A stretch of DNA of 56,472 nucleotides from a virus. The stretch spans positions 1 through 56,472 of IMG/VR virus record IMGVR_UViG_3300032006_000007. One strand, 5' to 3'. The position numbers and the translations under genes are program-made. Positions 11,025 to 49,446 of the stretch are shown here, piece by piece. Each line of letters begins with the position of its first letter. The first letter of the stretch is position 1. The notes below the pieces were generated by a model. The model saw only the letters and a list, made by a program, of their open reading frames with translations. It was not told the DNA's origin and did not search any database.

Positions 11025-12035
11025 TCATTCCTCAACATCTTGAATGCCTCTTTCCCCTAGAGTGAACTCTGCATCAGCCATTGGATGTTCTGGAGAATCA
11101 ACCATTCTGGCAATGCGTTTCCTACCTGACTTCTTAAAGTACATACGGTAAGTGGAAGCGTGACCTACAATGTTACCACCTATTGGTTTCACTGGATCAC
11201 CAAACATAATACTTGGATCACTTTGTACTTGGTTTGTAAACAACACAGTACAGTTAAAGAAGTATGATATGTTTTTGATATGTGTCATGAGTCTTGCTAT
11301 TTGATTTTGTCTTTCAGCAAGTGTACCTCTGCCTAGATACTCTTCTCTGAATTGACCTATTGAACCATCAATGATTACTATTCTAGGGTGTTTCTCTTGT
11401 AGTGTTTTGGATAATCCATTAATAGTTCCCATTAGATGTTCAGTATTAGGTGTATAGAAATATGTTATTTGGTCTAAGAATTTCTTAGAGTCATCAGAGT
11501 CTACAGCATATCCTCTAGCCTGTAGTATCTCTTGTATTCTTCTTGGTTTAAATGTATCTTCACAGTCTATCCATACTACATTACCACCATCTTTGATAGT
11601 TTCAACAGTTAGACTGTTACAGAATTGAGTTTTACCTGAGCCGAATTCTCCATAGACTTCATAGACTGCTTCTGGTACAACGCCACCACCAATCAACTCA
11701 TCAACTGCTTCACATTTTGAAGGTATTCTATGATAGTTTTCTTGGTATTCCATTAATTCAGTTACTGACATTGTAGTATCTCTAACTAACCCTGCTTGTT
11801 CTAGTATTCTTTGTGCTTCAAATACCCATGCATCTGCTTTTGACTTAGCAGTTCCAGTAATCTCTACTATCTCACGAGAACCTCTTACACATAAATCAAT
11901 TAAACTTGTTACTCCAAACCCGTTGAGTTTTTTTTCCGAAACTGCACCAAGTCCGGCAAGTTGAGAAAGACTTAAGTCAACTTCAGGTTTTGGTTCTTCA
12001 ACTTCAACAGGTGTTTCTATTTCTTCTTCACTCAT
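11025..12035 (-). CDS. radA: RadA/RecA-family recombinase
   Basis: 336 residues, the usual length of archaeal RadA. N-terminal helix-hairpin-helix domain (residues ~24-80, LAGLGAVSEKKLNGFGV), RecA core with Walker A GEFGSGKT (129-136), Walker B PRIVIIDGS (218-226), and the L2/ATP-cap region NQVQSDPSIMFGDPVKPIGGN near 280. It forms filaments on ssDNA for strand exchange or replication restart. Walker B ends IIDGS rather than the more usual VDSxx. Last large gene of an operon starting at 15255; overlaps the upstream TM gene by 4 nt. Confidence 0.92.
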   Translation of the reverse strand: MSEEEIETPVEVEEPKPEVDLSLSQLAGLGAVSEKKLNGFGVTSLIDLCVRGSREIVEITGTAKSKADAWVFEAQRILEQAGLVRDTTMSVTELMEYQENYHRIPSKCEAVDELIGGGVVPEAVYEVYGEFGSGKTQFCNSLTVETIKDGGNVVWIDCEDTFKPRRIQEILQARGYAVDSDDSKKFLDQITYFYTPNTEHLMGTINGLSKTLQEKHPRIVIIDGSIGQFREEYLGRGTLAERQNQIARLMTHIKNISYFFNCTVLFTNQVQSDPSIMFGDPVKPIGGNIVGHASTYRMYFKKSGRKRIARMVDSPEHPMADAEFTLGERGIQDVEE

Positions 12036-12343: not shown

Positions 12344-12956
12344 GTATTATCTCCAAGATATCTCTAAGTGTTTTTAATATATCAAGTCTAAGTTCTAAGT
12401 TCTTAAACTCATCTTCTACTGTATATGTAGTTCTTAATGTATGACTATCTTGTGTGATGTAAATCTTATGTTCTCCTTTTTCATCAGGGTTTAGTTTTGT
12501 TTCAAAGTCACCATTACTATCAGGTGTAATGACTTTGTTTGTTACTTCATTAGAAGGTGATACAACTGTTACTGCTACAGGTATGTCAGGTTCTACTTTA
12601 CCTTGTATAATATTATCTTCTACAATAATCTCTTGTTGTGTTAATTGTTTTTCTTTGATAACTATTGTTCCATTGTTAGTATCTGTTACCCACTCATAAG
12701 CACCATAATCATATGGAAAATTACCTGTCCATGTTCCATTAGTACTTATACTTGTACTAAATACCCCACCTGTATGACGAAGATTAATGGTTGAATTAGT
12801 AAAGTTTTCTAAAAATATAACATCATTCTGTTCTATCTCTAAGTAGTTAGGTAGTGTGTTAGTAAAGTTATATTGTTCACCAAATGCTTCACCTATTAAT
12901 ACTGTACTGAAAGCAACTATTGCTATTACTAATATTATCTTAGTATCTAATTCCAT
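12333..12956 (-). CDS. Secreted or membrane-anchored cupredoxin-like/Ig-like protein
   Basis: 207 residues. A signal peptide or anchor spans residues ~5-27 (IILVIAIVAFSTVLIG). Residues ~35-95 (EIEQNDVIFLENFTN…FPYDYGAYEW…GTIVI) follow the strand pattern of a cupredoxin such as plastocyanin, but the copper ligands (Cys and most His/Met) are missing. Residues ~115-180 look like an Ig-type beta domain, followed by an amphipathic C-terminal helix. ATG 12956 overlaps the mcm stop (TAATG), preferred over TTG 12971. Fold is inference; not an electron carrier on this evidence. Confidence 0.55.
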   Translation of the reverse strand: MELDTKIILVIAIVAFSTVLIGEAFGEQYNFTNTLPNYLEIEQNDVIFLENFTNSTINLRHTGGVFSTSISTNGTWTGNFPYDYGAYEWVTDTNNGTIVIKEKQLTQQEIIVEDNIIQGKVEPDIPVAVTVVSPSNEVTNKVITPDSNGDFETKLNPDEKGEHKIYITQDSHTLRTTYTVEDEFKNLELRLDILKTLRDILEIILGK

Positions 12957-14935
12957 TATGTTCTTCTCCAAGTACCATCCTTATTCATCTTTATTTTATT
13001 CTGTTGTTCCCATTGACCAAAGTATCTTGATGCTGAGTTCTCATCAAACTTTGGTGCTTCTGTTAATTCTTTCAAGAATTTTTCAGACTTTACATTACCT
13101 TTATCATCTGCTACTTTATACCAAACACTCAAAGCGATTCTTTCTTTGGTGTCTTTTGTCTTAAGTCCGTCTAAGAATGTCTGATTAAATCCACCTTTGT
13201 TTAAGTCAAGTCCAAATGAATCAAGTGAGTCACTTAGAATCTTTTGTATTGCATCCACATCTTCAGGTAACACATGACTTCTTAACATAAGTTTAGCGTG
13301 TGCTGTTGACATTCTTACTATTGCTTCTAGTTGTCTTACACCCACAGGTAGTTTCTGTTGTTGTTCTTCTCTACCTAACTCTCTAAGTTTCTCATATAAT
13401 TTTAATATTCTTTCTACTGTTTCATCATTTAATACAGGTTCTAATTCTCTACAATAATTTAATACTGACATTAGTTCTGTATCAGTTAAGTATGTATTAT
13501 AATCTTTACTATCATTTTTCTTAAATGATTCAATAATATGTTTAGCCTTTGCTCTATCTTTATCTCTATGAACATCATCTAAGAATAACCAAATGATATC
13601 AAATCTAGATATTAATGGAGATGGTATCTCAAGGTTGTCACCTAAAGATTGGTCTGAATCATACTTACCAAACTTTGGATTTGCTGCTGCAAGTATAGTT
13701 GCTTCTGCTGGTAGTGTCATCTTAGTACCTGCCTTGGCAATAGATACTGTTTGTTGTTCCATTGCTTCATGCATTGAAGATCTATCTTCCCTACCCATTT
13801 TATCAAACTCATCTATTAATGCAAAACCACCACTACATAATGGTAACACACCTGCTTGTGCCACTTGTGTACCGTTTGGTAATTTAACCATACCTATTGT
13901 AAGTCCGGCTGCTGTTGCTCCTTTACCTGATGTGTATAGAGATTTCTGTGTAATCTTCTTTGCTGATTTTAGAATCTCAGACTTTGCCATTGAAGGATCA
14001 CCTACCATTAGCATATGAATATCACCTCTCTTCTTAGAGTTGTTTGAACCACCAAGTAATGATAGTAAAACAGATTCTTTTATTTCACTGTAACCAAATA
14101 TGTGAGGAGCAAATGAGTTTACTATTTCAGACTTGTATTCATCTGGTTCCTTTTCAGACTTTAACTTTAACTTTGATATTGTTTCTTCATCTGGTTTAAT
14201 GAGTTCAGTTTCTTCCAAGTCCTCAATGCTAGCAACGTCAATAAGTATCTCATTCTCGTTTGTCTTGTAATCTATAATACTTCTAAATATACCTGTTATT
14301 CTTTTAGGTTGTCCAATGAATACTGTACCTACATTAGTTCCTATAATCTTACCCATTAATATTACAGGGCTATGGTTCTTTGCTTTATCCATAGGCTCTT
14401 GCATTAACAGAGTCTGTATATCATCAGTGACTACTCTTGAAGAATCTAGTTTCATCTTTGCTAGTTTACAAGAAGGCGTGGTGCATCTTGGTATATTGAT
14501 TTCTCTATCTTGGTTTGCTACACACTCTTCTTCATTACCACAAAGAACACACACAGCCACACCTCTCTTTACATAAGTCTTTGGAGGTTCTGCTGCGATT
14601 ACTGTACAATCAAATGTGATTGTCTTACCTTCATGTTCCCTTGAAGTTATGTCATGCATATTAATTATTGTTGAACCTGTCAATTCAATTCTTAAATTTC
14701 TATAAGTCTTTAAAGCACTACTACCTTTCTTATCTGCTATCACTTTGATAACTGCATCAAATAAATATGTCATGAAATTCTTACCTGTTTCAACATAGAT
14801 ATCAATTATCTTTTCATTACTAATATCTAAAACATATGTACTGTTAGGTCTTAATGCATCAATAACTTCTGTGTGTTTTGGTGATGATAGTATTTCATAT
14901 AACTCGTCTGTATAATATGAAGGTGTTGCATTCAT
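12956..14935 (-). CDS. mcm: MCM replicative helicase
   Basis: 659 residues, typical archaeal MCM length. N-terminal domain with a Cys cluster at ~129-156 (CVLC…CTTPSC) for zinc; AAA+ core with Walker A GDPSMAKS (312-319), Walker B FALIDEFDKM (371-380), sensor AAANPKFGKY, and arginine finger SRFD (443-446); C-terminal winged-helix-like region. It unwinds DNA at the fork as a hexamer. With radA and a resolvase-like nuclease it forms a replication/recombination operon. No viral polymerase is seen, so host polymerase is probably used. Confidence 0.95.
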   Translation of the reverse strand: MNATPSYYTDELYEILSSPKHTEVIDALRPNSTYVLDISNEKIIDIYVETGKNFMTYLFDAVIKVIADKKGSSALKTYRNLRIELTGSTIINMHDITSREHEGKTITFDCTVIAAEPPKTYVKRGVAVCVLCGNEEECVANQDREINIPRCTTPSCKLAKMKLDSSRVVTDDIQTLLMQEPMDKAKNHSPVILMGKIIGTNVGTVFIGQPKRITGIFRSIIDYKTNENEILIDVASIEDLEETELIKPDEETISKLKLKSEKEPDEYKSEIVNSFAPHIFGYSEIKESVLLSLLGGSNNSKKRGDIHMLMVGDPSMAKSEILKSAKKITQKSLYTSGKGATAAGLTIGMVKLPNGTQVAQAGVLPLCSGGFALIDEFDKMGREDRSSMHEAMEQQTVSIAKAGTKMTLPAEATILAAANPKFGKYDSDQSLGDNLEIPSPLISRFDIIWLFLDDVHRDKDRAKAKHIIESFKKNDSKDYNTYLTDTELMSVLNYCRELEPVLNDETVERILKLYEKLRELGREEQQQKLPVGVRQLEAIVRMSTAHAKLMLRSHVLPEDVDAIQKILSDSLDSFGLDLNKGGFNQTFLDGLKTKDTKERIALSVWYKVADDKGNVKSEKFLKELTEAPKFDENSASRYFGQWEQQNKIKMNKDGTWRRT

Positions 14936-28297: not shown

Positions 28298-28932
28298 TAG
28301 TTATCTTTCTCCATTGTTTCTAGATTTGCTTTTGAATGTCTATAAAGATCAGCTTGATTAGTCATTTGACCTACTTTCATTTCTTCCATCCATCTCTTTC
28401 TATATGATTCTTTTTGATGTGCATCAACATCATCTATATTAAAGTCATCTTTATTCATCTGTTCTTGTTTTAATTGCTCCCATAAATTAATTTCTCTTAC
28501 TCTGTCATGTGCCTGTAATCTCATATTCATTAATGCAAACTTTTTTTGTTTAATTTCTGCATCTTTTATCATTCTTAATGCCTTTGATTTTTTACTTGCA
28601 CCTTTTGTTTCGTCATATTCACATTCCAATAACTCTAATTCACCCTGTGCTTTTTGATAGTCACATGATAATTGAATTAGGTTTGAAAAGAATGAATCTT
28701 GCTCACGAACACACTGCCAATACTTACTTGCTGGGGTAGGGAAAGACACATCATTTAGAACGGAATATCTCATTTCTGTTTCAGTTCTCCATACCTGTTT
28801 AACTTCAAATACTCTTTGTAATTCTTTTGATAATTTTGAAACTGACATTAAATCATCCTTCTCAAGAATATCCACATCTTTTATTTTATCTACACCTAAT
28901 TTTGTGTATTTGGTTATTTCGTTTTTGGTCAT
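28297..28932 (-). CDS. Helical coiled-coil protein between fibre genes
   Basis: 211 residues, mostly helical with long charged coiled-coil segments, quite unlike the beta-rich fibre proteins around it. It may be a fibre chaperone or scaffold, by analogy with assembly factors encoded next to fibres; no family recognised. ATGA overlap with the giant LamG gene. Confidence 0.6.
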   Translation of the reverse strand: MTKNEITKYTKLGVDKIKDVDILEKDDLMSVSKLSKELQRVFEVKQVWRTETEMRYSVLNDVSFPTPASKYWQCVREQDSFFSNLIQLSCDYQKAQGELELLECEYDETKGASKKSKALRMIKDAEIKQKKFALMNMRLQAHDRVREINLWEQLKQEQMNKDDFNIDDVDAHQKESYRKRWMEEMKVGQMTNQADLYRHSKANLETMEKDN

Positions 28933-31900
28933 CTTATTGTTCCATCTCCTAATCCAGCATACTGTGTTTCAGTCATGTTACCTTTTGCTGTCCAAGAACT
29001 TCCATTCCATAACGTACAATTATTCATAGAAGAACCACCATCTAAACCACACATAACCCAATGATGATCTTTATTTCCACCACCTGAAACATATCTAGGA
29101 GTAGTATCACTTCCTAAAGTTATTGCTGTAACAGAAGTCCAAGTTGTTCCATCCCAATCATAAGCATAAGCACCATTACCACCAGCTACATGAGCTGATT
29201 CTGCTGTTCTACCAGCATGGTTATGTGATGAGGTATCTTGAGGTAGTGCAGTTGTAGCTGACCAAGAACTACCATTCCATTTATCTGCTTCTTTACCTCT
29301 ACTACCACCTGTAATTAACATACTAGTATCTAAACCATCTCCACCAACGTGTTCACCAGCTTGACTTCCTACTGCTCCAGCACTTGACCAAGATGTACCG
29401 TTCCATTTTGATGATGAATCTACTTCTGTTCCAGAATTATTTCTTCCTAAAGCTATTATTGCACTTGATGGACTTCCACCATAAGCAGTTGTATCTCGTC
29501 TTTGAGTGTCTAATGCTACTGCTGAAGCCCATGAACTTCCATTCCAAATTGTTGATGAATCAAAGAAACTACCACTTGCAATATAACCACCACAAGCTTG
29601 AAAAGATGATTTATAACCACCACCAGCAGAATATCCTAAGTTATTTGGTAAGTTTGCACTATTAGTTGCCCATACATAATCTGTTGCCAATGATGTATTA
29701 TTTGTTAGACTTCCAGCACCACCACAATATAATCCGTCACCTGTTGAAGCATGAACTACTGCAAGATCAGTATGATAATCCATTAACCAAGTATTATCAG
29801 ATTGTTTCCAATAATATTTTGGTGTATCATCTGTTTGTTCAAAGATTGTGTTAACTGGTAGATTAGTCATTCCATCTAATTCGCTTGTTGTTGAAGCATT
29901 GTTTTTACAACCTTCTGTTGCTGTAACACCATCATAAACTTTCACTTCTCTAACCCAAGCTGTTCCGATATCACTATCGGCAGAATTTTCATTCCAATGC
30001 TGTATTCCAGTTAAACCATCAAGATTAGTTCCTACTGCTAAGTTAGATGATTCAAAATGTGGAGTTCCAGTTCTATCTGCATTTGTCCAAACTTTACATT
30101 TAATATTACTTCCATCACGATACATATCAACCCAATATTGTGTATTAACTGCTAGAGCATTATTACTTGATGTGACTTCTGCATAACTGTTAGTTTGACC
30201 TGACATTAATACGAATCTGTTATATGAACCACTTCCAGCTCCAAGAGGAGTTCCTTGTGGCATGAAGTTAATTGTTTTCAAACCTGAAACTTTGAATCCT
30301 TGAGTGTGATCACTTGTCAATGATACAAGACCTGCATCGTTTGTATTCCAATCTGCAATTTGGAATGTGAATTGACAAAGCCATTTACTATTAGACAATG
30401 TAGTTCCTAATGATTTACCAATACCTGAATCACCTACATTAACATCTGTATATGTCACTCCTTTGTTTGTAGTATCTATTGCTATATCACCACCTGTATC
30501 AACATCTGTCCAACCTGATGCAGAAGCATAATCATCATCAGGTGTAAAAATCGCTGTTGCACCCAAACTTGTACTATCCATAGTATAATGTGCTTTTAGA
30601 CCTGCTTTATTACTTAATGTTGAAACTAATGCACCTGTGCCACTATTATATAATGCTGTTATTTCTGTTGTAGATAAATTTCTATCCCAAAACGACATAT
30701 CATTTAAATCACCATCAAGATAAAATGTGCCTGAACCTCTTCTTCCTATATTTAATACGTGTTGTTGAGCACTTGATACTGGAGTTCCAGTAAATGAAGG
30801 ATAACTAGAGTCTGCTGATTTTTCTGTACCGTCAACATATGCCTTTAAATAACTGTTTGAAAGATCAGTCACTATTGCATAATGATGCCAATTACTATCA
30901 TTTGGGAAAAACTGTTGTGCATAGTATAATCCAATTTGCTGACTTGATGCGTTTGTAAATTCTATTTTTACTTTTCTATCTTCACTTGATGATGATCTAT
31001 CTAAGTAAACAATTTCAATTCCATTACTTGTTCCATCTGCTGTTGAAAGAACAACTCTTACATCACCTGATTCAGGTGTATCTTTTTTAAGCCAAAATGT
31101 GATAGTATTTTTTCCACCATCATGTAAGAATGTAAAGTCACTTGTTGAACCTGCTGTCACATAATCATTTGTTCCATCAAAAGAATAAGCACCTGTGCCA
31201 AGTTTGTAATTATCAGTTGAGAATGTGACACCTGTATTTGTTCCATTGTTAGAACCTTGTGAATCATTTGTATCACTAGATAAATTATATTTTGAAACTA
31301 AACCTGATGTTGAAGGACTTGTGACAGGCGTTCCACTATTGTATAATGTAGTGACTTCTGATTGTGTTAATGCATCGTTGTAAACTAATGCTTGATACAT
31401 ACCACCTTCAAATTTATGATCATTTCCATTTGCACTCCAACCTATTCTAGCATTATATGTTCCAGCAGAACTGTTTGCTGTCATTGAACCTGATTTTTGT
31501 AATACTCCATTTCGATAAATTTTACCTGTTGTTCCATCGTATGTGACACACAAGTGTTGCCATTCATCACCAGTGAGAATTTCTGAATCTGTTGTAATAC
31601 TACTATCAGTTGAACCCCAAATTCCAAACAAAACAAGTGTTTTACCACCACTATGATCACTATGTCTAATTGTAAATCCATTGTTTGAACTACTTGCATC
31701 ACTATTATCAAATATTATATCATTACCTGTACTACTAATATTAGATGGTTTAAGCCATACCGAAAAACTTCCAGCTTGTTGCATTTGGTTAAACTTTGTT
31801 GCAAATGTAATATAATCATTAGAACCATCAAATACTGCATAATCTTTTATAGGTATTAATGAAACTCCAGTATTTGTTCCATCAACATCTGAACCTAATG

Positions 31901-31964
31901 AGTCACTAACTCTATCAGCTTTAGTTCCCTGTATTCTCTTTGCTCCTAGATATGTAATAGCCAT
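28929..31964 (-). CDS. Giant LamG/kelch-like fibre (putative receptor-binding protein)
   Basis: 1011 residues. N-terminal MAITYLGAKRIQGT tag shared with the 27239 protein; LamG (concanavalin-like) domains at ~40-215 (FDGSNDYITF…GEWQH-type strand) and ~225-440 (FDGTNDYVTAGS…); another jelly-roll-like part at ~460-690; then five WNGSSW-type repeats (~780-1000) resembling kelch blades. This architecture suits glycan binding at the tail tip. ATG 31964 overlaps the upstream stop (TAATG). Confidence 0.75.
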   Translation of the reverse strand: MAITYLGAKRIQGTKADRVSDSLGSDVDGTNTGVSLIPIKDYAVFDGSNDYITFATKFNQMQQAGSFSVWLKPSNISSTGNDIIFDNSDASSSNNGFTIRHSDHSGGKTLVLFGIWGSTDSSITTDSEILTGDEWQHLCVTYDGTTGKIYRNGVLQKSGSMTANSSAGTYNARIGWSANGNDHKFEGGMYQALVYNDALTQSEVTTLYNSGTPVTSPSTSGLVSKYNLSSDTNDSQGSNNGTNTGVTFSTDNYKLGTGAYSFDGTNDYVTAGSTSDFTFLHDGGKNTITFWLKKDTPESGDVRVVLSTADGTSNGIEIVYLDRSSSSEDRKVKIEFTNASSQQIGLYYAQQFFPNDSNWHHYAIVTDLSNSYLKAYVDGTEKSADSSYPSFTGTPVSSAQQHVLNIGRRGSGTFYLDGDLNDMSFWDRNLSTTEITALYNSGTGALVSTLSNKAGLKAHYTMDSTSLGATAIFTPDDDYASASGWTDVDTGGDIAIDTTNKGVTYTDVNVGDSGIGKSLGTTLSNSKWLCQFTFQIADWNTNDAGLVSLTSDHTQGFKVSGLKTINFMPQGTPLGAGSGSYNRFVLMSGQTNSYAEVTSSNNALAVNTQYWVDMYRDGSNIKCKVWTNADRTGTPHFESSNLAVGTNLDGLTGIQHWNENSADSDIGTAWVREVKVYDGVTATEGCKNNASTTSELDGMTNLPVNTIFEQTDDTPKYYWKQSDNTWLMDYHTDLAVVHASTGDGLYCGGAGSLTNNTSLATDYVWATNSANLPNNLGYSAGGGYKSSFQACGGYIASGSFFDSSTIWNGSSWASAVALDTQRRDTTAYGGSPSSAIIALGRNNSGTEVDSSSKWNGTSWSSAGAVGSQAGEHVGGDGLDTSMLITGGSRGKEADKWNGSSWSATTALPQDTSSHNHAGRTAESAHVAGGNGAYAYDWDGTTWTSVTAITLGSDTTPRYVSGGGNKDHHWVMCGLDGGSSMNNCTLWNGSSWTAKGNMTETQYAGLGDGTIR

Positions 31965-33211
31965 TATGCAGTACCTCTCTCTTTCCATTCAGCATCTACT
32001 TTTGAAGCACCATTGTAAAACTTCACATCGTCAATAATACCTGTAATAGTTCTACCACCACCACTATCTACTCTGTTTGCTATTTTAATATATCGTAAAC
32101 TTTGTGTTGATGATGAAACACTATAAGAAAGTGTTGTAAATGCTTTAGTAGAATAAGAAGAATCAGAAAATATATCAATAGTAGCATTTGTAGATGATGT
32201 TCTAATAATTTGAACATAATAATCAGTTGATGTTGATGGTGTCCAATTAACAGTTGAAGAACCTGCACCTAATGGGAATGTTCCATCATTTGTTGTTGCA
32301 CTTCTCATCACGTTTGTGCCATCCATGTTCATATCAATACCAATAAAGTCTTGTGATGTTGTACTTCCAGCAGATTCATCTTTATCTGATAGACCTACCC
32401 AAATATCATTACCATTTGCTGAACCACCTGAAATAGCAGAAAAATTGATTTTAAATCTTAGAACCCATTTATCATTACTAACACTTGTTAAATCATATAC
32501 ACAAGTATCATTTGATCCATCTCTCATCATATTAAAGTCTAAATCATTGTCAGTTGTATTAACTCCTATCTTTGAAGAATCAGAATCAGTCCAACCATCT
32601 GTTCCTGAAAAATCATCTGAAAATGTTACAGTAGCACCTGCTGTTCTACGGTAAATCTTACGAGTATCTGTTTCTTCATAACGTGTACCTGCTTCTACGT
32701 TTGTTAGTGTAGTTTTTTCATCTTCCGTTCCATCTTCAGCATCACCAAAAACAGTAATGTAAGAACCTGTATCATAACTACCTGAACCATCATTTGTGAC
32801 AGTAATTTGTGTTATCTGTGCCGATGTGTTTTGCCATTTTCCAACCCATTCAGATCTACTTGGAGCATTACTTGCACCTGCTGTGTTAATATTATATTCT
32901 CCGAATATTAGTTTCCATTTATCGGCTTTATTTGTTATATCTAATTGTAAATATCTATCTTCTGTAGTATCACCATACACTTCAAGTTGTGCTTGAGATG
33001 TATCTGATGAATCAGCAGCACCATCATTACTTCTACGTCTATTATAATTATTACCTGAGTCAGAATTAAATCTTATATTCTCTTTAATATTTCCACCTGA
33101 AGCTATTGTATGAATTACAACTCTAAGTTTATGACAACCAGTAATTGTACCAGTATCTAATATATCACCAGCACTGCTTAAGGCAACATGAGAAAGTCTT
33201 GTCCAAGCCAT
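31964..33211 (-). CDS. Tail-fibre protein, paralogous domain plus jelly-roll
   Basis: 415 residues. Residues ~1-165 are the fibre paralogue domain (WTRLSHVALSSAGDILDTG…RFNSDSGNNYNRR…SYITVFGDAED); residues ~190-400 are a jelly-roll (TFSDDFSGTDGWTDSD…IIDDVKFYNGAS) similar to the third part of the giant fibre. TAATG coupling upstream and downstream. Confidence 0.65.
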   Translation of the reverse strand: MAWTRLSHVALSSAGDILDTGTITGCHKLRVVIHTIASGGNIKENIRFNSDSGNNYNRRRSNDGAADSSDTSQAQLEVYGDTTEDRYLQLDITNKADKWKLIFGEYNINTAGASNAPSRSEWVGKWQNTSAQITQITVTNDGSGSYDTGSYITVFGDAEDGTEDEKTTLTNVEAGTRYEETDTRKIYRRTAGATVTFSDDFSGTDGWTDSDSSKIGVNTTDNDLDFNMMRDGSNDTCVYDLTSVSNDKWVLRFKINFSAISGGSANGNDIWVGLSDKDESAGSTTSQDFIGIDMNMDGTNVMRSATTNDGTFPLGAGSSTVNWTPSTSTDYYVQIIRTSSTNATIDIFSDSSYSTKAFTTLSYSVSSSTQSLRYIKIANRVDSGGGRTITGIIDDVKFYNGASKVDAEWKERGTA

Positions 33212-36893: not shown

Positions 36894-37357
36894 AAGCTAA
36901 GTTGCCACTCCACGATTGCCCTTTTAGACGATGTTTTAACTAATGGAGATGAATCAACCTGCCTTGCCCACATTACCGGACTACCTTGATTATCTCTAAG
37001 ACCTAATTCATTCCATGTGAAGTTACCTTCTGAATAACCAAAATCAGCACTCAAGAATAATGTAGGTCTGACATATACTCTTTCACTACTAGCAATTGTT
37101 TTCCAGTATTTATTAGAAGATGCTTGTAAGTCTGTTTGACCTGCTGCTACTGCTGAAGTTGAATCCCCAACACCTATAGCATTTCCATAACCACCACCAG
37201 TGATATTTCCTAAGTATTTTAATATAGAATCTTTACCCACATTTACTACTAAATTCTTATTAATTGTATCTCTAACAAGTTTTTCAGAGCCATCAGCTTG
37301 TTTTTCCCAAACTTTTATATGAACATGACCGTTTAACGGTACTACTTCATTACTCAT
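36890..37357 (-). CDS. Tail structural protein
   Basis: 155 residues. Begins with a beta segment (GHVHIKVWEKQADGSEKLVRDT), a Gly-rich middle (GGGYGNAIGVGDSTSA) and ends with FTWNELGLRDNQG…AIVEWQLSL, a form seen in baseplate or fibre-connector proteins of phages. Between hub and collar genes; overlaps both by 1-4 nt. Confidence 0.55.
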   Translation of the reverse strand: MSNEVVPLNGHVHIKVWEKQADGSEKLVRDTINKNLVVNVGKDSILKYLGNITGGGYGNAIGVGDSTSAVAAGQTDLQASSNKYWKTIASSERVYVRPTLFLSADFGYSEGNFTWNELGLRDNQGSPVMWARQVDSSPLVKTSSKRAIVEWQLSL

Positions 37358-39372
37358 TATGCACCACTTCCGTATACATCTTGTGATGCAACACCTGCTC
37401 TTCTAGAACCATAACTGGAACTTCCCCATGTTGCTCTACTCTTATCATATATATTGATCTGCCGTGTGATATTTAAGGTTTCTGTGTAAACATGAATATC
37501 ATGAATAAATAATGATGTAGTATCAGCGAGAGGTAAAATCTCTTCAGGTGATTCGTATTCTCTTATTTCTTTGATAGTAGATAACGCACCTTCCACATTA
37601 TGTAGTTTCTGAACAATTTGTTTATCATACTCAAAGTAATCAAAGTAATATTCTCCTACATTCAAAACGGTTTCAAATTTAGGATATTTCCATTGAATAG
37701 ATTTGACTACGAATGTCTGAGCAGATAGACTCATATTAGCATTAGTAATAAATATAAGGTCATTCTCGTTTAAGTAATTATCTAGTTCACCTATTTCAAC
37801 CTTGATTTTCCTATTAACATCTTTATATCTATTAAGATATGATTGAACAAATCTTACACCATCATCTCTGTTTGTAATCCAAGGTAAGTTTAATCTCTTG
37901 GCATGAACCCCATATGTATCTTGACTTGACTGTCTAGTACCTCTGATAAATAATGGTTTCTCATAATCATAAGTTGCAACAATAGCACCACTAACTGCAC
38001 TAGTAAATGTTATATTTTTACCTACACTATCTAAGGAGTAATCGACTTCAGGTGTTAATTCAGTTCCATCATCTGTTACTCTTACAGATATAGCACCATG
38101 TGCTAATGTCATGGATGTTGCGTTACTAAGATTTTGTGTTTCCGATGTAGAATAAACAGTTCTTACACCTAAAACTGTAAGGTCATTTACTATTTCTGTA
38201 TCATCATACCCATTTTCTAATATTCTAGAATTAACTCCATGTTGTAAATGAACTAAAGTTACATTATGTTCTGCTGGTTCAAATACAAATAAACCTGTTG
38301 GTGTTGTATAGAAAACTTTATTTGTTAATGCACCAAGATTTCTTATTATATCAATAAGTTTTCCATCTGCTGTATATTTCACAATATTTATACCTGAATC
38401 TGCTCCTCTTCCAGTGTAAGTAAAAGTTGTGTTATTTGTTATCAAATTATTCACAATAAACTCAGGTGATTTATTATCAAATACAGTTCCTCTAATCTCA
38501 CTCTCTCCTAATATTTTTCCAAAACTTTGAGCAATAACTTCTGAGTGTGTTGTTTTATCTTCTATCTTTGTTACATACCCACCAAATTTCATTACGGTTC
38601 TAGGATTTCTTTTTGTGTATATTTTATTAGCTTCTGTATCTAATATTTGTGATTTGTATAATCTTATCCTAGAAATAATACCTGCAAAATAATCACTATC
38701 TACAGAGTCTGTTCCAATATCTAATGTGTTTGTATCTGTTAAATTCGTAGAACTGGAAACTGTTCCTTTAGAAACACCATCAACAAACAATGTTATTAAG
38801 TTACTAGAATTTCTTGTTACACGTATTAAATGATAATTACCATCATTGAACCCTGCTGAAGAACTTGTGACAATTGAAGAACCAACCCTAAATGAAACAT
38901 CACCTGCTGTTGTTGTATTAACTTCTAATTGCCAACCGTTGTTTGCAGCACTTCTTTTTGAAAGAATAGGCATACTTGTTGTTGTTGCTGTCCAATTTAC
39001 CCAAACAAGAATATCAAACTGACCAGAAAAATCCAAACTATTTGAATCAGGTACAACTATTTTACTATTAGTTCCATTGAACTGTGCTGCGAAATCATCC
39101 CAAGCACCATCTACATATGTGATATTTGTTGCTGTTCCATGATTATCATTATTACTTTCATCTTTTTCTGTTGCTTGTAAATTATATACAGCAGATAAGT
39201 TTTCTAAGTTAACATAATCTTGCATCCAAATAACTTCATTGTTAGATGCAACTGATACATTTCTCGCAACTTTAAACTGCATTTGATCAATAGCCCTATC
39301 ACCCTCTTTTTTTAAATCTGCTTCAAGTGGTGTAGCAACTACATTATTAACTATTAATTTTACTAGTGTCAA
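37357..39372 (-). CDS. Tail hub/baseplate protein with inserted LamG domain
   Basis: 671 residues. The start (VKLIVNNVVATPLEADLKKEGDRAIDQMQFKV) and the part after residue ~240 (MKFGGYVTKIEDKTTHSEVIAQSFGKIL…) match the split first barrel of phage gpD/gp27-like hubs. Between them, residues ~58-235 (YNLQATEKDESNNDNHGT…FNGTNSKIVVPDS…IDILVWVNW-type strands…) form a LamG domain. C-terminal part resembles the rest of the hub. It sits below the tape measure gene, as expected. Confidence 0.7.
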   Translation of the reverse strand: MTLVKLIVNNVVATPLEADLKKEGDRAIDQMQFKVARNVSVASNNEVIWMQDYVNLENLSAVYNLQATEKDESNNDNHGTATNITYVDGAWDDFAAQFNGTNSKIVVPDSNSLDFSGQFDILVWVNWTATTTSMPILSKRSAANNGWQLEVNTTTAGDVSFRVGSSIVTSSSAGFNDGNYHLIRVTRNSSNLITLFVDGVSKGTVSSSTNLTDTNTLDIGTDSVDSDYFAGIISRIRLYKSQILDTEANKIYTKRNPRTVMKFGGYVTKIEDKTTHSEVIAQSFGKILGESEIRGTVFDNKSPEFIVNNLITNNTTFTYTGRGADSGINIVKYTADGKLIDIIRNLGALTNKVFYTTPTGLFVFEPAEHNVTLVHLQHGVNSRILENGYDDTEIVNDLTVLGVRTVYSTSETQNLSNATSMTLAHGAISVRVTDDGTELTPEVDYSLDSVGKNITFTSAVSGAIVATYDYEKPLFIRGTRQSSQDTYGVHAKRLNLPWITNRDDGVRFVQSYLNRYKDVNRKIKVEIGELDNYLNENDLIFITNANMSLSAQTFVVKSIQWKYPKFETVLNVGEYYFDYFEYDKQIVQKLHNVEGALSTIKEIREYESPEEILPLADTTSLFIHDIHVYTETLNITRQINIYDKSRATWGSSSYGSRRAGVASQDVYGSGA

Positions 39373-39887
39373 TCAACCGTCACATCCTCACCAACAGTGA
39401 ATTCTATTGTCGCATTCCATGTTGCCGGATCTTGTGCTCCTTTACTAAATCCAAGTCTAGATATAATACCAAACCTTCTAAATAGATTTTTAGATCCAGC
39501 ATCATCATATATTCTAAACTCATATTTTTCATTTGTTGTAATACCTATTTTTTCATATTCTTCTTGTAGAAATACAACTGCACCTTCAGGTGTTTTTGGA
39601 TCCCATGTCGTATTATCAGAAGTTCTTGTGAATGAATCCAAATAAGAACCATTTGCTTGTATTACGGGTGAATATTGTTCATTTTTAATAATCCAAGTAA
39701 AAGTTATTCTCTCTGTATTACCTTCAGCTTTTGTAAGTATAGCACTATCTGAAGAAAATTCAGGCAACCCAAAAGTTTGAACTGGTATTTCTATACTCTG
39801 ATCATACTGATTAATGTTTCTCGCTTCAAATTTATATAGCTCATTACCAGAAGATGTTGGGTTATATTTAATTAAGAATATTTTCAC
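39369..39887 (-). CDS. Distal tail/hub-associated protein
   Basis: 172 residues, beta-rich with ERITFTWIIKNEQYSP and a final PATWNATIEFTVGED, resembling LysM-less hub-connector proteins of siphoviruses that lie between tape measure and hub. Call from position and composition. ATGA overlap with hub gene. Confidence 0.55.
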   Translation of the reverse strand: MKIFLIKYNPTSSGNELYKFEARNINQYDQSIEIPVQTFGLPEFSSDSAILTKAEGNTERITFTWIIKNEQYSPVIQANGSYLDSFTRTSDNTTWDPKTPEGAVVFLQEEYEKIGITTNEKYEFRIYDDAGSKNLFRRFGIISRLGFSKGAQDPATWNATIEFTVGEDVTVD

Positions 39888-41926
39888 TATACAACACCTC
39901 TCCTACTATTAGCTTCTAATATCCAACGCTGTATTAAAGGTTTTAACTTATCAAAGTCTGCTTCTCTTGTCACATTACCTACATTAATATTCAATATGTA
40001 GTTTGTACCACCTTTTCCCGGTGTAACAGTTTCTTGTCCTCTTTCACCAAATGTATATGTCTGACCACTTCTACCTATACCAAATATTGGTTCAGTAATT
40101 AATCCTCCATTAGCATAGCCTACTGAACCTGCTGGTTTACCATTAACAATATTTGTCAAATCACCCATCTGTGGTTTCGTACCACCATGCATATTATATA
40201 ATGTCATCGCTGCACTATATGCAGCAGCGTGTTTTCTTGCTTCTTTATCATTAACGCCTTTTACACCTCCAACTGTTGTATCTTTCTTCCATTTATCTAA
40301 TAATCTCTGACCTTCAACACCAACTTGACTTCCTCCTCTAACTAATGCTTGAAATAACCCTGCTGTTTCTTGTTCATTTTTACCTTCGAACCTACCAGCA
40401 AGTGAAGCTTCTTGTAATTTATTCCAAACTGTCTGTGTGTTTGTTGTGTCTGCTCTTTTTTCTAAATTTTCTATTACGGCTGTTGCTCTTACTTTATCAG
40501 GTGATGCTGGTTTTGAACTAGTGTTAATATCAAAGTTAGTACCTGTAGCAGTAGAGAATATACCAGTCTTCCACATATTAATTGCATCATTTGCTGTTCC
40601 AACTGTTTTTGAATGTATACCTTTACCTGCATTAAGATTAGATGTTTTAAATGCCTCCCACCTACTAGATAATCTTGCACCAGATTTTTCCATTTCATCT
40701 TTTATGAAGAATATAGAATTTTTAATATCTACACCTGCTAATACAGCTCTACCCATTATCTCTTGTAGTTCATCCCATTCAGATTCTATTAATTGACCGT
40801 CTATTAAAGCTCTTGCCATGAAAGTTTCTACTTCTTCCATATGACCTGCTGAAGCTTCTGCATTGGTTTCTACTTCTGCAAAATACTCTTCAACAGTTGC
40901 TGCTGGTGCACCCGGCATTGATGAAGCACCCGGTGTAGTACCCCACATTTGACCACCTTGTTTTTCTTTTCCACCTGTCCATACATCTGCTATCAATCCT
41001 TTCATGTGTGTCCATCCGTGTTTTGATATGGCTTTATCAAATTGATTACTTGGATCCATACCTGCTTCTTTTAATTGATCTAATTGCCAATGAGCCATCC
41101 CATCATAATCTCTTGCTCTATTAACTGTTTCATCAGATAAGAAGTTTCTAAAAAATTCATTATCAGCCATAGCAGAAACAATTGCAGCGTGTATAGTTTC
41201 TGCTGGTTTTAATAAGAACCCTAATGCTTGTTTACCGTATTGTTCTCCTAATCCCATAGCGTGTTTGGAATTCTTATAAAATGGTATAGCAATATTTTTC
41301 ATAAAGAATAACATAATAGGTCTTAAGAATGAACCAATAAAGTCACCAATAGGTCTAAAGATTAACATGATAGATGTGTTAAACAAACTCATCATTGTCT
41401 TTAATATAGGTGATGAATCAAATAATTTCTTTCCTAGCATACCAACAATACTTCCACCAACTGCAAACTTCATTGCATCTTTCATGGCATTACCAGTCTG
41501 TTCACCTTTATCTTTTCCTTTCATTTTTAGAGGTGATAATGTCTTTGCAAAACCTTTAAGCATTCCTTTGAATCCTTTTTTGGTTTCCTCTTTAGCATCT
41601 TTAGCATCTTTACCTCCAGTATTTTTTTCTCCACTTGAATCCTTTTTATTCTTCTTTTTTGTTTCTTTTTCTACTACACCTAAAGCATCTTTTACTTTTT
41701 TCATATCGTTTTGTAATTTCTTTAAATTACTATTCATTTCTGTTCTAGCAGCTACCTCCTTTCTTTTCCAAGGAGTCATGTTTCTTCTATCAAGACTGTA
41801 AAATTTCATATATTTATCTTGTAAATTTGCAATTTTATTAAGAGCATCTTTTGCATCTTTTTCAAATTTTGCTGATTTCTTTGTGTTGTCAGCTATATCT
41901 TTACCAGTATCTCTCTTTGATGCCAT
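39887..41926 (-). CDS. Tail tape measure protein
   Basis: 679 residues. Helical N-terminus with long Lys-rich low-complexity linker, hydrophobic segments at ~155-250 (SSPILKTMMSLFNTSIMLIFRPIGDFI), helical middle, and the phage tape-measure C-terminal signature YANGGLITEPIFGIGRSG…YTFGERGQETVTPG. At roughly 1.5 angstrom per residue the tail would be near 100 nm. It follows the frameshifted chaperone gene, the standard order. Confidence 0.88.
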   Translation of the reverse strand: MASKRDTGKDIADNTKKSAKFEKDAKDALNKIANLQDKYMKFYSLDRRNMTPWKRKEVAARTEMNSNLKKLQNDMKKVKDALGVVEKETKKKNKKDSSGEKNTGGKDAKDAKEETKKGFKGMLKGFAKTLSPLKMKGKDKGEQTGNAMKDAMKFAVGGSIVGMLGKKLFDSSPILKTMMSLFNTSIMLIFRPIGDFIGSFLRPIMLFFMKNIAIPFYKNSKHAMGLGEQYGKQALGFLLKPAETIHAAIVSAMADNEFFRNFLSDETVNRARDYDGMAHWQLDQLKEAGMDPSNQFDKAISKHGWTHMKGLIADVWTGGKEKQGGQMWGTTPGASSMPGAPAATVEEYFAEVETNAEASAGHMEEVETFMARALIDGQLIESEWDELQEIMGRAVLAGVDIKNSIFFIKDEMEKSGARLSSRWEAFKTSNLNAGKGIHSKTVGTANDAINMWKTGIFSTATGTNFDINTSSKPASPDKVRATAVIENLEKRADTTNTQTVWNKLQEASLAGRFEGKNEQETAGLFQALVRGGSQVGVEGQRLLDKWKKDTTVGGVKGVNDKEARKHAAAYSAAMTLYNMHGGTKPQMGDLTNIVNGKPAGSVGYANGGLITEPIFGIGRSGQTYTFGERGQETVTPGKGGTNYILNINVGNVTREADFDKLKPLIQRWILEANSRRGVV

Positions 41927-41936
41927 ATATATTTGA

Positions 41937-42206
41937 TTAAGATTTGGTCTTATTTAAGTTTCTCTTATTCTTCTTTGGCTTCTTTACACGCTGATCTCCT
42001 AGAGGTTGATATGCTTTACCTTGTGCCTGCTTCATTCCTTTCTGATATTTCATTAATAATATCTTTAAGAATTTAAAAGGATGTGAATCCACTTGTTCTT
42101 TAGTCCACCCAAATTGAGTAGCACATATTAGATAAATATCGTATATTATTACTTCGAAGTCGGTGAGTCGTTGAAGGGCTCCATCATCTGACTCAAGTAT
42201 TCCCCT
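41937..42206 (-). CDS. Tail-assembly chaperone, frameshift extension (T part)
   Basis: 89 codons read after a -1 shift from the upstream ORF. It has no start of its own near its beginning; it runs ESDDGALQRLTDFEVIIYDIY…, then TQFGWTKEQVDSHPFKFL and a basic Lys-rich tail. Together with the first 93 residues of the upstream ORF it makes a 182-residue fusion. Place just before the tape measure gene is the classic lambda G/GT arrangement. See slippery site 42206-42212. Confidence 0.75.
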   Translation of the reverse strand, partial: RGILESDDGALQRLTDFEVIIYDIYLICATQFGWTKEQVDSHPFKFLKILLMKYQKGMKQAQGKAYQPLGDQRVKKPKKNKRNLNKTKS

Positions 42207-42484
42207 AAAGGGTAGTATTCGAGAATCTTATTTCCTATCTCGGTAACGGTCTTGTAGCCAACACCGTCAATGCCTTCCTTTGTTATTTCAAAGGGTGCCT
42301 TCTTAATTGAGTTTAACATAATTTCCATTCTATATTGTTGAACGTTGTCTAGTAAATTTTCTTCATTTTGTATATTAGCAGATTTCTTAATTATTTTTTC
42401 AAACACACCAAAAGGCATATCATCTTCGAATTCAATAACTTCTGATACTCCTTTAATTTCTACAGTAATAGTCTGTATAGCCAT
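42149..42484 (-). CDS. Tail-assembly chaperone (G part)
   Basis: 111 residues. Beta-grasp-like N-terminus (IQTITVEIKGVSEVIEFEDDMPFGVFEK) and helical middle, ending EPFNDSPTSK. Codons 92-93 (CCT TTA) are the slippery site for the GT fusion. It would bind the tape measure protein and recruit tail tube subunits. Leaderless behind AATATAAA at 42507-42514. Confidence 0.75.
   Translation of the reverse strand: MAIQTITVEIKGVSEVIEFEDDMPFGVFEKIIKKSANIQNEENLLDNVQQYRMEIMLNSIKKAPFEITKEGIDGVGYKTVTEIGNKILEYYPLGEYLSQMMEPFNDSPTSK
42206..42212 (-). other. Programmed -1 frameshift site CCCTTTA
   Basis: Canonical X-XXY-YYZ heptamer in frame (C CCT TTA) at codons 92-93 of the chaperone ORF. Slipping gives CCC TTT AGG and continues in the open -1 frame to 41937. 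The context ACCCTTTAGGGG can also form a short hairpin around the heptamer. Confidence 0.72.
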
Positions 42485-42520: not shown

Positions 42521-43510
42521 CTAAAGTGCTGCTGATATGCCGTTCTTACAGACTACACTTGCTCCTCTTGCTTCAAAGTTAATTGTTTCGAAGACTGGTT
42601 CTACTGGAACAATACCATCTACATTATGTGTATCTATTGTAACACCGTGTAAAGTAATTGTGATTGATTTCTCTGCTGCACCTGAACCACCATTTGTAAA
42701 TTTAAGTTCTAATGCTGCACTTGATCCAGAATGAATTTCTGAACTTGGTGGAGTATCAATTTGGTCTATTAATTGTTGTAATTTATTATTATCTTTCCAT
42801 GATGATTGGAATGTACCATTAATATCAAATCCTTGTCTGTATGCTGATGTTGCTTTATGTGAACCTATTGCATAAAGTAAGTTTGCATTTTGTGTAAATG
42901 TTGTTGAGATGTTTTGTATTTCTGCTACTGTTGCCAATGATGAACCGTTATACCATTTCAATGTACCATGTGCAAATGTGTATGGGAAATTAATATCATC
43001 TGCTGCTGGTGTAGAATCTAATGATGTTGTTGCATCTCCTTCAGAACCAAATGTTATATCAGCAGAACAGTTAACTAAGTCATCTACTGCTGTGTTAAGT
43101 GTGAAACCTGTCAAAATACAACCAAGCATTTTTCTTGATATGTTTTCTGTCTCACCTGCAAATCCTACCTCTGTACTGAATGAAGTTGCTGTTTTTGGTG
43201 CATCTTCGTATGTATGAGTGTATGGTGCTGATGAGCCTGTTGTTGCTGCGTTTCCATATAGTGCTTTGAACAACCAAGGGTTTGATAATACAAAGTCTAC
43301 TGCTACACTACCAGTCTGTTGTCCGTAAGCAAATGCTTCTCTTTCAACTTGATTTAATTTTCTGATATCTTTTCTAGAGTTATTTAATGTAATTGAGCCT
43401 ACTGATTGTTGTAATCCAAATGGTTTAGTATATGCACTTGAACCGGGATCTGTAGCGAATGTACTTTCCCAAGCGTATTGTATATAGCCATGTGCACCTG
43501 TTCTTACCAT
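42521..43510 (-). CDS. Major tail tube protein
   Basis: 329 residues. GAHGYIQYAWESTFATDPGS…GLQQSVGSITLNNSRKDI…QQTGSVAVDFVLSNPWLF and later ILTGFTLNTAVDDLVNCSADITFGSEG follow the phage tail tube fold of the Phage_tube-type families; the C-terminal segment adds an Ig-like part. Its own TTTAAATA promoter (43535-43543) fits high expression. Confidence 0.75.
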   Translation of the reverse strand: MVRTGAHGYIQYAWESTFATDPGSSAYTKPFGLQQSVGSITLNNSRKDIRKLNQVEREAFAYGQQTGSVAVDFVLSNPWLFKALYGNAATTGSSAPYTHTYEDAPKTATSFSTEVGFAGETENISRKMLGCILTGFTLNTAVDDLVNCSADITFGSEGDATTSLDSTPAADDINFPYTFAHGTLKWYNGSSLATVAEIQNISTTFTQNANLLYAIGSHKATSAYRQGFDINGTFQSSWKDNNKLQQLIDQIDTPPSSEIHSGSSAALELKFTNGGSGAAEKSITITLHGVTIDTHNVDGIVPVEPVFETINFEARGASVVCKNGISAAL

Positions 43511-47744: not shown

Positions 47745-49421
47745 TTAGAATCCTACCTCTTCTTCTGTTGGTTTGTAGTATTTACCTGCGAGAATGTCTT
47801 GTGCAACTTTACTTAGTCCTTCATATCCTTGTCCTCTTGCATCTTTCAAAATTGGTGAAAAGTCTTTACCAGATTTTTCAACAGTTTCTAGTGCTGCACT
47901 TGGTCTTGGAGTTTCAGTTGTAAAGTTGTGTTGAGATTTTGTAACTAATTCGGCTTTCTCGGATGCTCGCAATCCACCGTTATCAGTGGAAGGTTTGTCA
48001 TCTCCAGATCTATCACTATCCAATCCGGATTGATCTCCTTGTGGATATGGTTTTTCTGGAACCTTTACATTTGCACCTACATCATCTCCACCTTCAGAAC
48101 CTGATGGTTTCAATGGTAAGTCTGTTGGGGTTTCTAGAGCTTTTAATCTTCCATCAATTGATTTGATAGAATCGTGAACGCCAGTTTGACCTTCAGCGAG
48201 TGATTTGATTTGCTCTACGAGAGTGTCGATTGAAGTTTTAATAGCTTCTGATTTGGTTTTCTCTTCATCTTCTCTGTCTTCAGATTTCTCTTCAACAGCG
48301 ACTGATTTAGGTTCTTCCTCATCATGTGCTTTATTTTCTACTTCATTGTCTACAATTTTCTTGTCAGAATCGCTCATGTTATTATTATATTTAACTTTTT
48401 CGGGGTTTATATATTTTTCTGTTTCTGGTTCTTTAACCTCTGAAACTTGGTTTAATATCTCATTTCCTTGTTGTGCTGTATTGTATGCTCCTAAACCTCT
48501 AACTCCCATACCTCTACCTTGAGTTGCTTGATCTTTTTCAATAATATCTCCTTCTTCTGGATTTTTTGGTTGTGGATGACCTGTTCCAGTGAAATCTTCT
48601 TTAATTTTACGTCCAGAGCTGGAATTCTCGTCTACATCTTGATTATACATACCGTGTTGTGTCTGATCAGTCTCAGCATCTGATACGCCTTCTTTACCTT
48701 GATCACTATCATCATCTTTGTTTTTAACGAATGAACCTACTATTTTCTCTGCTTGTTCATGTGTTTTACCATCTGCTACTAGTTTTGCTACTTTACCTTC
48801 AAATGTATCTGCTTCTGTTAGGTTAGCATCTTTAGTTACAGCACATCCAAATTTATCACAATTTATCTTCATCTTACCGTTATCGAGAACCTTTCCTTGA
48901 GTTACTGCTTTTGCCAATGGGTTAAAGTCAGTTATTAATGCTAATGGTACTGCTGGATCTTCACAGACTGCTACTTCATAATGTTCCAAGTCTTTTAGTG
49001 CATATGCTACTGAACCATCCTTCATAGTGATTGGTTCTCTTTCTGCTTTGGTTGCACCACCGAATGACAAGCCTTTATACTCACCACTCTTGATTTTATC
49101 CCAAATCTCATCATCTAGTTCATAATTCTTATGTATTTTACCTGTAATTTTTATAGCTGGTATTTCAGCACCTTCCTCATCTTTAATCTCCAATCTTGCA
49201 AAATTAATACCTTTACCAACTACTCTGTTTGTATGAGTGTCTGTAATAGGTGCCCCTCTATCCATCCAGACAGGTAGGACTTTCATTAACTCATCAGTCA
49301 CTGTAATCTCATTTTGTTTATCTCTCATTTGAACTGTGAGTATTCCCTCAAAGAATCTTTCTTCAGAATTAATTGGTTCTAGACTTTTCGTTAGGGTTTG
49401 CTTAAAAAACAATGGATCCAT
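47745..49421 (-). CDS. Prohead protease fused to scaffold
   Basis: 558 residues. Residues ~20-150 are an HK97-type (U35/S78) prohead protease: HTNRVVGKG gives the catalytic His63 and KGLSFGG the Ser119. The rest is acidic, low-complexity and coiled-coil (EEEPKSVAVEEKSEDREDEE; SIDTLVEQIKSLAEGQ), a scaffold domain. A CDKFGC pair near residue 190 is odd. ATG 49421 chosen: TATATAAAG is 26-34 nt upstream of it but only 5-13 nt upstream of ATG 49442. Confidence 0.8.
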   Translation of the reverse strand: MDPLFFKQTLTKSLEPINSEERFFEGILTVQMRDKQNEITVTDELMKVLPVWMDRGAPITDTHTNRVVGKGINFARLEIKDEEGAEIPAIKITGKIHKNYELDDEIWDKIKSGEYKGLSFGGATKAEREPITMKDGSVAYALKDLEHYEVAVCEDPAVPLALITDFNPLAKAVTQGKVLDNGKMKINCDKFGCAVTKDANLTEADTFEGKVAKLVADGKTHEQAEKIVGSFVKNKDDDSDQGKEGVSDAETDQTQHGMYNQDVDENSSSGRKIKEDFTGTGHPQPKNPEEGDIIEKDQATQGRGMGVRGLGAYNTAQQGNEILNQVSEVKEPETEKYINPEKVKYNNNMSDSDKKIVDNEVENKAHDEEEPKSVAVEEKSEDREDEEKTKSEAIKTSIDTLVEQIKSLAEGQTGVHDSIKSIDGRLKALETPTDLPLKPSGSEGGDDVGANVKVPEKPYPQGDQSGLDSDRSGDDKPSTDNGGLRASEKAELVTKSQHNFTTETPRPSAALETVEKSGKDFSPILKDARGQGYEGLSKVAQDILAGKYYKPTEEEVGF

Positions 49422-49446
49422 GTCTATTAACAATTCATTCATTAAG

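Follow-up and report, generated by a model that had tools for sequence, protein, structure and literature searches.

Organization of the locus

The window (the whole stretch of DNA analyzed here, 56,472 nt, from IMG/VR record IMGVR_UViG_3300032006_000007) contains, between the genes for a tail tube protein and a putative tape-measure protein, a short ORF overlapped by an open -1 frame, which raises the question of how this second frame is translated. The initial annotation had proposed a programmed -1 frameshift following the logic of the lambda G/GT genes in an archaeal-type virus, which is supported by the frame logic, the heptamer, the gene order and the archaeal affiliation described below. 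We conclude that region 41937–42484 very probably encodes the tail assembly chaperone of an archaeal tailed virus as a cassette of the G/GT type, with -1 slippage on C_CCU_UUA. The features of the locus are:

42521–43510, minus strand: tail tube protein, upstream neighbor (PF18906, E 3.2e-22; HCTV-1 tail protein, E 2e-22)
42149–42484, minus strand: candidate zero-frame tail assembly chaperone (G-like), 111 aa, from its ORF, a weak PHROG match, an AlphaFold model and dN/dS
42206–42212, minus strand: putative slippery heptamer C_CCU_UUA, codons 91–93, from its position, register and conservation
41937–42227, minus strand: -1 frame ORF (T-like extension), delimited from stop to stop, with a homolog in all relatives
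41937–42484, minus strand: predicted GT-like fusion, 182 aa, by conceptual translation
39887–41926, minus strand: putative tape-measure protein, 679 aa, downstream neighbor, assigned by position and length

The zero frame starts at ATG 42484 and comprises 111 codons up to the stop at 42151–42149, and the open -1 frame runs from 42227 to the stop at 41937–41939; the tape-measure ORF (41926–39887) begins 10 nt past the latter. As initially described, the -1 frame has no usable start codon in the overlap, its first ATG, GTG or TTG triplet being GTG 42092, 56 nt beyond the zero-frame stop. The CCCTTTA heptamer, reported in frame at codons 92–93 within the overlap, does occupy that place (42212–42206, minus strand) and is read TA[C CCT TTA], which is the X_XXY_YYZ register over codons 91–93. 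Conceptual translation in the zero frame through Leu93, and then in the -1 frame from Arg, yields the annotated length of 182 residues for the fusion. The gene order is also maintained in the relatives described below, with a tube homolog directly upstream at 66/66 loci and, in the 53/53 relatives with enough sequence, a homolog of the tape-measure ORF downstream; a tape-measure family search with the 679-aa ORF produced no significant match.

The capsid protein of the window matches only Druskaviridae haloviruses and methanogen-associated viruses, the best match being to Druskaviridae, and its portal matches only Druskaviridae; likewise, the best match of the tail tube is HCTV-1 and the MCM helicase matches archaeal viruses only. 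This helicase is encoded together with a Rad51/RadA-family recombinase in the replication region (11025–12035 and 12956–14935, minus strand). By its gene content the virus is archaeal, and we assign its host at the level of the domain. Directly upstream of the capsid gene, a 565-aa ORF (47745–49442, minus strand) has a weak match to XkdF-like proteases (E 0.0011) and is likely to code for the head maturation protease, as in HCTV-1. Additionally, two large proteins from the tail region (28929–31988 and 37357–39372, minus strand) contain Laminin_G_3/concanavalin-like domains and are likely involved in host binding.

Identity and predicted folds of the products

The zero-frame protein has a weak match to a PHROG tail assembly chaperone (E 0.12); Pfam searches with the chaperone sequences did not detect any homology, and the PHROG searches retrieved nothing beyond weak matches. 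The AlphaFold model of this protein (pLDDT 84.7) had as best match in a BFVD fold search a viral tail assembly chaperone (E 3.7e-4), the sole match below E 0.001; many of the other top matches were also viral tail assembly chaperones, with annotated ones, such as that of ChaoS9 and the N15 GT protein, at weaker scores. A PDB fold search with the same model gave no match below E 0.001 and nothing usable. These matches are suggestive of membership of the zero-frame protein in the chaperone fold.

The -1 domain was modeled as a short helical bundle with moderate confidence (pTM 0.49), and its best fold match, with none below that E value, was a small protein of an uncultured archaeal virus (E 0.067); the second-best fold match of the zero-frame model is another protein of this same taxon. 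These two BFVD proteins, A0A1S5Y368 and A0A1S5Y388, are listed separately and resemble the two halves of the chaperone from the window, so their annotation may have missed the fusion.

Conservation of the heptamer among relatives

Relatives were retrieved by scanning viral contigs with the chaperone, the chaperone alignment and the -1 domain; for the two broadest of these scans, the heptamer was no part of the peptide patterns employed. The resulting set comprised 115 scorable locus records, corresponding to 88 distinct sequences and, after dereplication at 90%, to 67 lineages. Two records from one contig (L033/L189) were left out of scoring because the contig stops before the heptamer site. 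Scans of GTDB genomes with both halves of the chaperone, and a search of an annotated phage collection, found no relative of them.

The initial annotation proposed to examine the conservation of the heptamer and of both frames, and named loss of the heptamer, or a second frame opened by its own start codon in a relative, as observations that would contradict it. CCCTTTA is present in the same register in 115/115 records and 67/67 lineages, with no loss, even though the identity of the chaperone descends to 22–35% among relatives, and the -1 extension is free of stops in these relatives. The large ORFs of the window contain 0.0023 in-frame X_XXY_YYZ heptamers per codon (Y = A/T, Z not G), which gives a chance expectation of about 0.06 in the overlap, and there is no other in-frame CCCTTTA in the 7,343 codons of these ORFs. 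Over a gene tree with a total length of 19.7 substitutions per site, third-position changes at codons 91, 92 and 93 were 0, 0 and 0, versus a mean of 15.1 per column; Pro64, which is as invariant in residue, accumulated 24. Similarly, only 1 of 266 other Pro-Leu pairs from the same contigs reads C|CCT|TTA. Some of the conservation of the heptamer could come from coding in two frames; nevertheless, the pattern is not predicted by two-frame coding alone. We did not count as a signal the invariant GGG that follows the heptamer in the window's clade, because coding in two frames (zero-frame Gly; -1 frame Arg, Glu/Gly) forces this triplet.

Translation of the -1 frame

Beyond the zero-frame stop, which lies 61–157 nt after the heptamer across relatives, the -1 frame contains 0 stops in 3,110 codons, versus 8–12% in the other two frames. 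For this extension, dN/dS was 0.55 in the sister clade and 0.30 in the window's clade, where the zero-frame chaperone gave 0.19; a FGWxKxxVD motif of the -1 ORF is conserved. Both frames are therefore under purifying selection. The +1 frame was discarded: in the initial set of relatives, L019 and L020 aside, it is closed within 27 codons around the stop.

A protein-coding second frame might instead be a separate gene, translated by coupling from an internal or non-standard start codon of its own and not as a fusion partner. Many members of the sister clade indeed contain ATG, GTG or TTG in the -1 frame 24 nt past the heptamer, and the two proteins of the uncultured archaeal virus that resemble the chaperone halves are separate entries. 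However, the NTG triplet of the sister clade is there because the zero frame has a Trp codon (TGG) at this place, and the site is CTG in 13/67 lineages and AAT, GAT or GAC in another 17/67, the window among them, such that 30/67 lineages have CTG or a non-start codon. Besides, GTG 42092, the first possible start in the window, comes after much of the conserved -1 region, and a separate gene leaves the invariant wobble bases of CCCTTTA unexplained. A start codon proper to the -1 frame was thus rejected, since it is not conserved across the 67 lineages, and we consider a separate gene to be very improbable.

Slightly less probable still is that the heptamer is kept only through constrained residues in both frames, with the real shift point or direction elsewhere in the overlap. 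The bases of the heptamer are read as Pro-Leu and Pro-Phe, and both pairs are invariant. Nonetheless, the flanking residues vary while the heptamer bases are fixed: Tyr, His, Phe and Ile all occur at codon 91, whose final base is always C, and the -1 codon after Pro-Phe is Arg, Ser, Asn, Ile, Thr or Lys with A always as its first base, indicating that letters are conserved rather than residues. Additionally, the -1 frame is closed by a stop no more than 3–6 nt ahead of the heptamer in some lineages (3 nt at the nearest), which excludes entry upstream of that stop in those lineages, and we found no other in-register heptamer conserved among relatives. Finally, a frame break between two ORFs can look like a damaged gene, but sequencing error or decay is already refuted, with a probability close to nil, because 67 lineages, dereplicated and drawn from many independent contigs, share this layout with both frames under purifying selection.

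Elements that could stimulate the frameshift

The sister clade (51 lineages; L019–L198; e.g., L056:4884–4938) has an SD-like GGAGGT element, which the initial annotation had not noticed, 8–12 nt upstream of CCCTTTA. In this clade, the positions six and five codons ahead of the Pro codon hold GAG (30/51) or GGA/GGG and then, in most cases, GTG or GTC, compared with synonymous use of 22% for GAG, 3% for GGG, 5% for GTC and 8% for GTG. Using AUCACCUCCU as anti-SD, which is the general archaeal/bacterial sequence taken from established knowledge and may differ from the 3′ end of the host's 16S, the duplex with the element reached a mean of -9.0 kcal/mol, versus -3.8 kcal/mol when codons were resampled with the protein unchanged. 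With this anti-SD, 94% of the sister-clade lineages were at or below -6 kcal/mol, at a spacing of 9–12 nt in most of them, versus 8.7% of background places, and 6% of the lineages reached this value in the window's clade. The SD-like element of the sister clade thus exceeds what its protein requires. No such element was found upstream of the heptamer from the window, where the best pairing was -0.5 kcal/mol. The heptamer is thus universal among these lineages, and the SD-like element is clade-specific.

Downstream of the heptamer, we found no RNA structure in the window (z 0.05), and the A3 consensus structure (-5.45 kcal/mol, with a covariation term of -0.28) does not indicate a conserved one; in both clades, searches for a hairpin or pseudoknot, with long-range pseudoknots outside their scope, gave mean z values near 0 and no covariation. 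As a separate observation, a Leu codon CTC (codon 88, 42223–42221 in the window) is strongly over-used in the window's clade (10/16, z -6.3); it is located four codons before the Pro codon of the heptamer, within a TTCTCGAA stretch.

Comparison with known systems

The tail assembly chaperone frameshift of phage lambda, which produces G and GT, has been reviewed (PMC5009743). The locus from the window shares with it the slot between the tube and the tape-measure genes, the latter assigned by position and length, as well as an overlapping, protein-coding -1 ORF that lacks its own start and a conserved X_XXY_YYZ heptamer within the overlap. It differs in the identity of the heptamer, in having no detectable sequence homology to Pfam families or, weak matches aside, to PHROG families, and in belonging to an archaeal virus, and its fusion is a predicted one. 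By every sequence feature examined, the locus belongs to the G/GT kind.

The same logic was already proposed for haloarchaeal tailed viruses: the chaperones of the Druskaviridae HVTV-1, HCTV-1 and HCTV-5 are annotated as -1 frameshifts on GGGAAAC or GGGAAAG (PMC5009743, PMC8211752). By capsid and portal, and in the case of HCTV-1 by tail tube, these are the closest viruses to the window in the databases, and their chaperones occupy the same gene slot and use the same -1 shift. They contain a purine-rich SD-like sequence upstream of their heptamers, with anti-SD pairing of -9.3 kcal/mol in HVTV-1 and HCTV-5 and of -6.1 kcal/mol in HCTV-1, whereas the window's clade lacks it; likewise, their GGGAAAC/GGGAAAG heptamers contrast with CCCTTTA in the window. 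Comparison of profiles with hhalign did not reveal homology to the chaperone halves of HVTV-1 and HCTV-1 (probability 0.1–0.2%, E 0.3–0.5). In view of this lack of profile homology and of the different heptamer, we discarded that the window contains a chaperone of the Druskaviridae type.

The -1 frameshift in Escherichia coli dnaX, on the heptamer AAAAAAG, is stimulated by an SD sequence. The sister clade shares with it an SD-like element at a bacterial-type distance upstream, and the dnaX-type spacing (roughly 10–14 nt) was found in this clade only and not in the window or its clade. The heptamers are different (AAAAAAG versus CCCTTTA), and no downstream hairpin was found here. SD-like frameshift stimulators are also mentioned in previous work (PMC8211752).

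In the literature we found, C_CCU_UUA is reported as a slippery site only for Giardiavirus, for which CCCUUUA has been proposed as a -1 site; the cited paper disputes the -1 mechanism (PMC8230311). The heptamer is the same as in the window; however, Giardiavirus is a eukaryotic dsRNA virus with a proposed downstream pseudoknot, unlike the window.

Proposed mechanism and significance

From the layout of the locus, its conservation and the resemblance to known chaperones, we infer that ribosomes slip, how often they do so and what the fusion does, as follows. The majority of ribosomes would stop after codon 111 and produce the short chaperone, while a minority would slip one base back on C_CCU_UUA, with the Pro tRNA of the P site moving its pairing from CCU to CCC and the Leu tRNA of the A site doing so from UUA to UUU; these ribosomes would then carry on in the -1 frame, generating the 182-aa fusion. 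In the sister clade, the SD-like element 8–12 nt upstream probably pauses the ribosome, raising slippage. By analogy with lambda gpGT, the C-terminal helical domain of the fusion would recruit subunits of the tail tube to a tape measure coated with chaperone.

What appears to be new here is the type of heptamer, its extreme conservation and a clade-dependent SD-like stimulator. We regard it as rather probable that these archaeal tailed viruses represent a large lineage, so far uncultivated, with a universal C_CCU_UUA site, supplemented by an SD-like stimulator in one clade but not in the window's. In archaea, experiments have established -1 frameshifting in essentially a single cellular gene, fucA1; for a few haloviruses it is a proposal (PMC8211752, PMC5009743). 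If true, our reading would make the two clades a natural experiment on the requirements of archaeal ribosomes for shifting to the -1 frame and would provide, as far as we found, the first comparative evidence of an SD-like frameshift stimulator in archaeal viruses. A slippery site in which no letter differs among at least 67 lineages constitutes a strong and easily tested set, and the split between clades with and without the SD-like element makes the requirement for a stimulator in archaea directly testable. The finding also completes a tail chaperone by adding the half that gene callers will omit.
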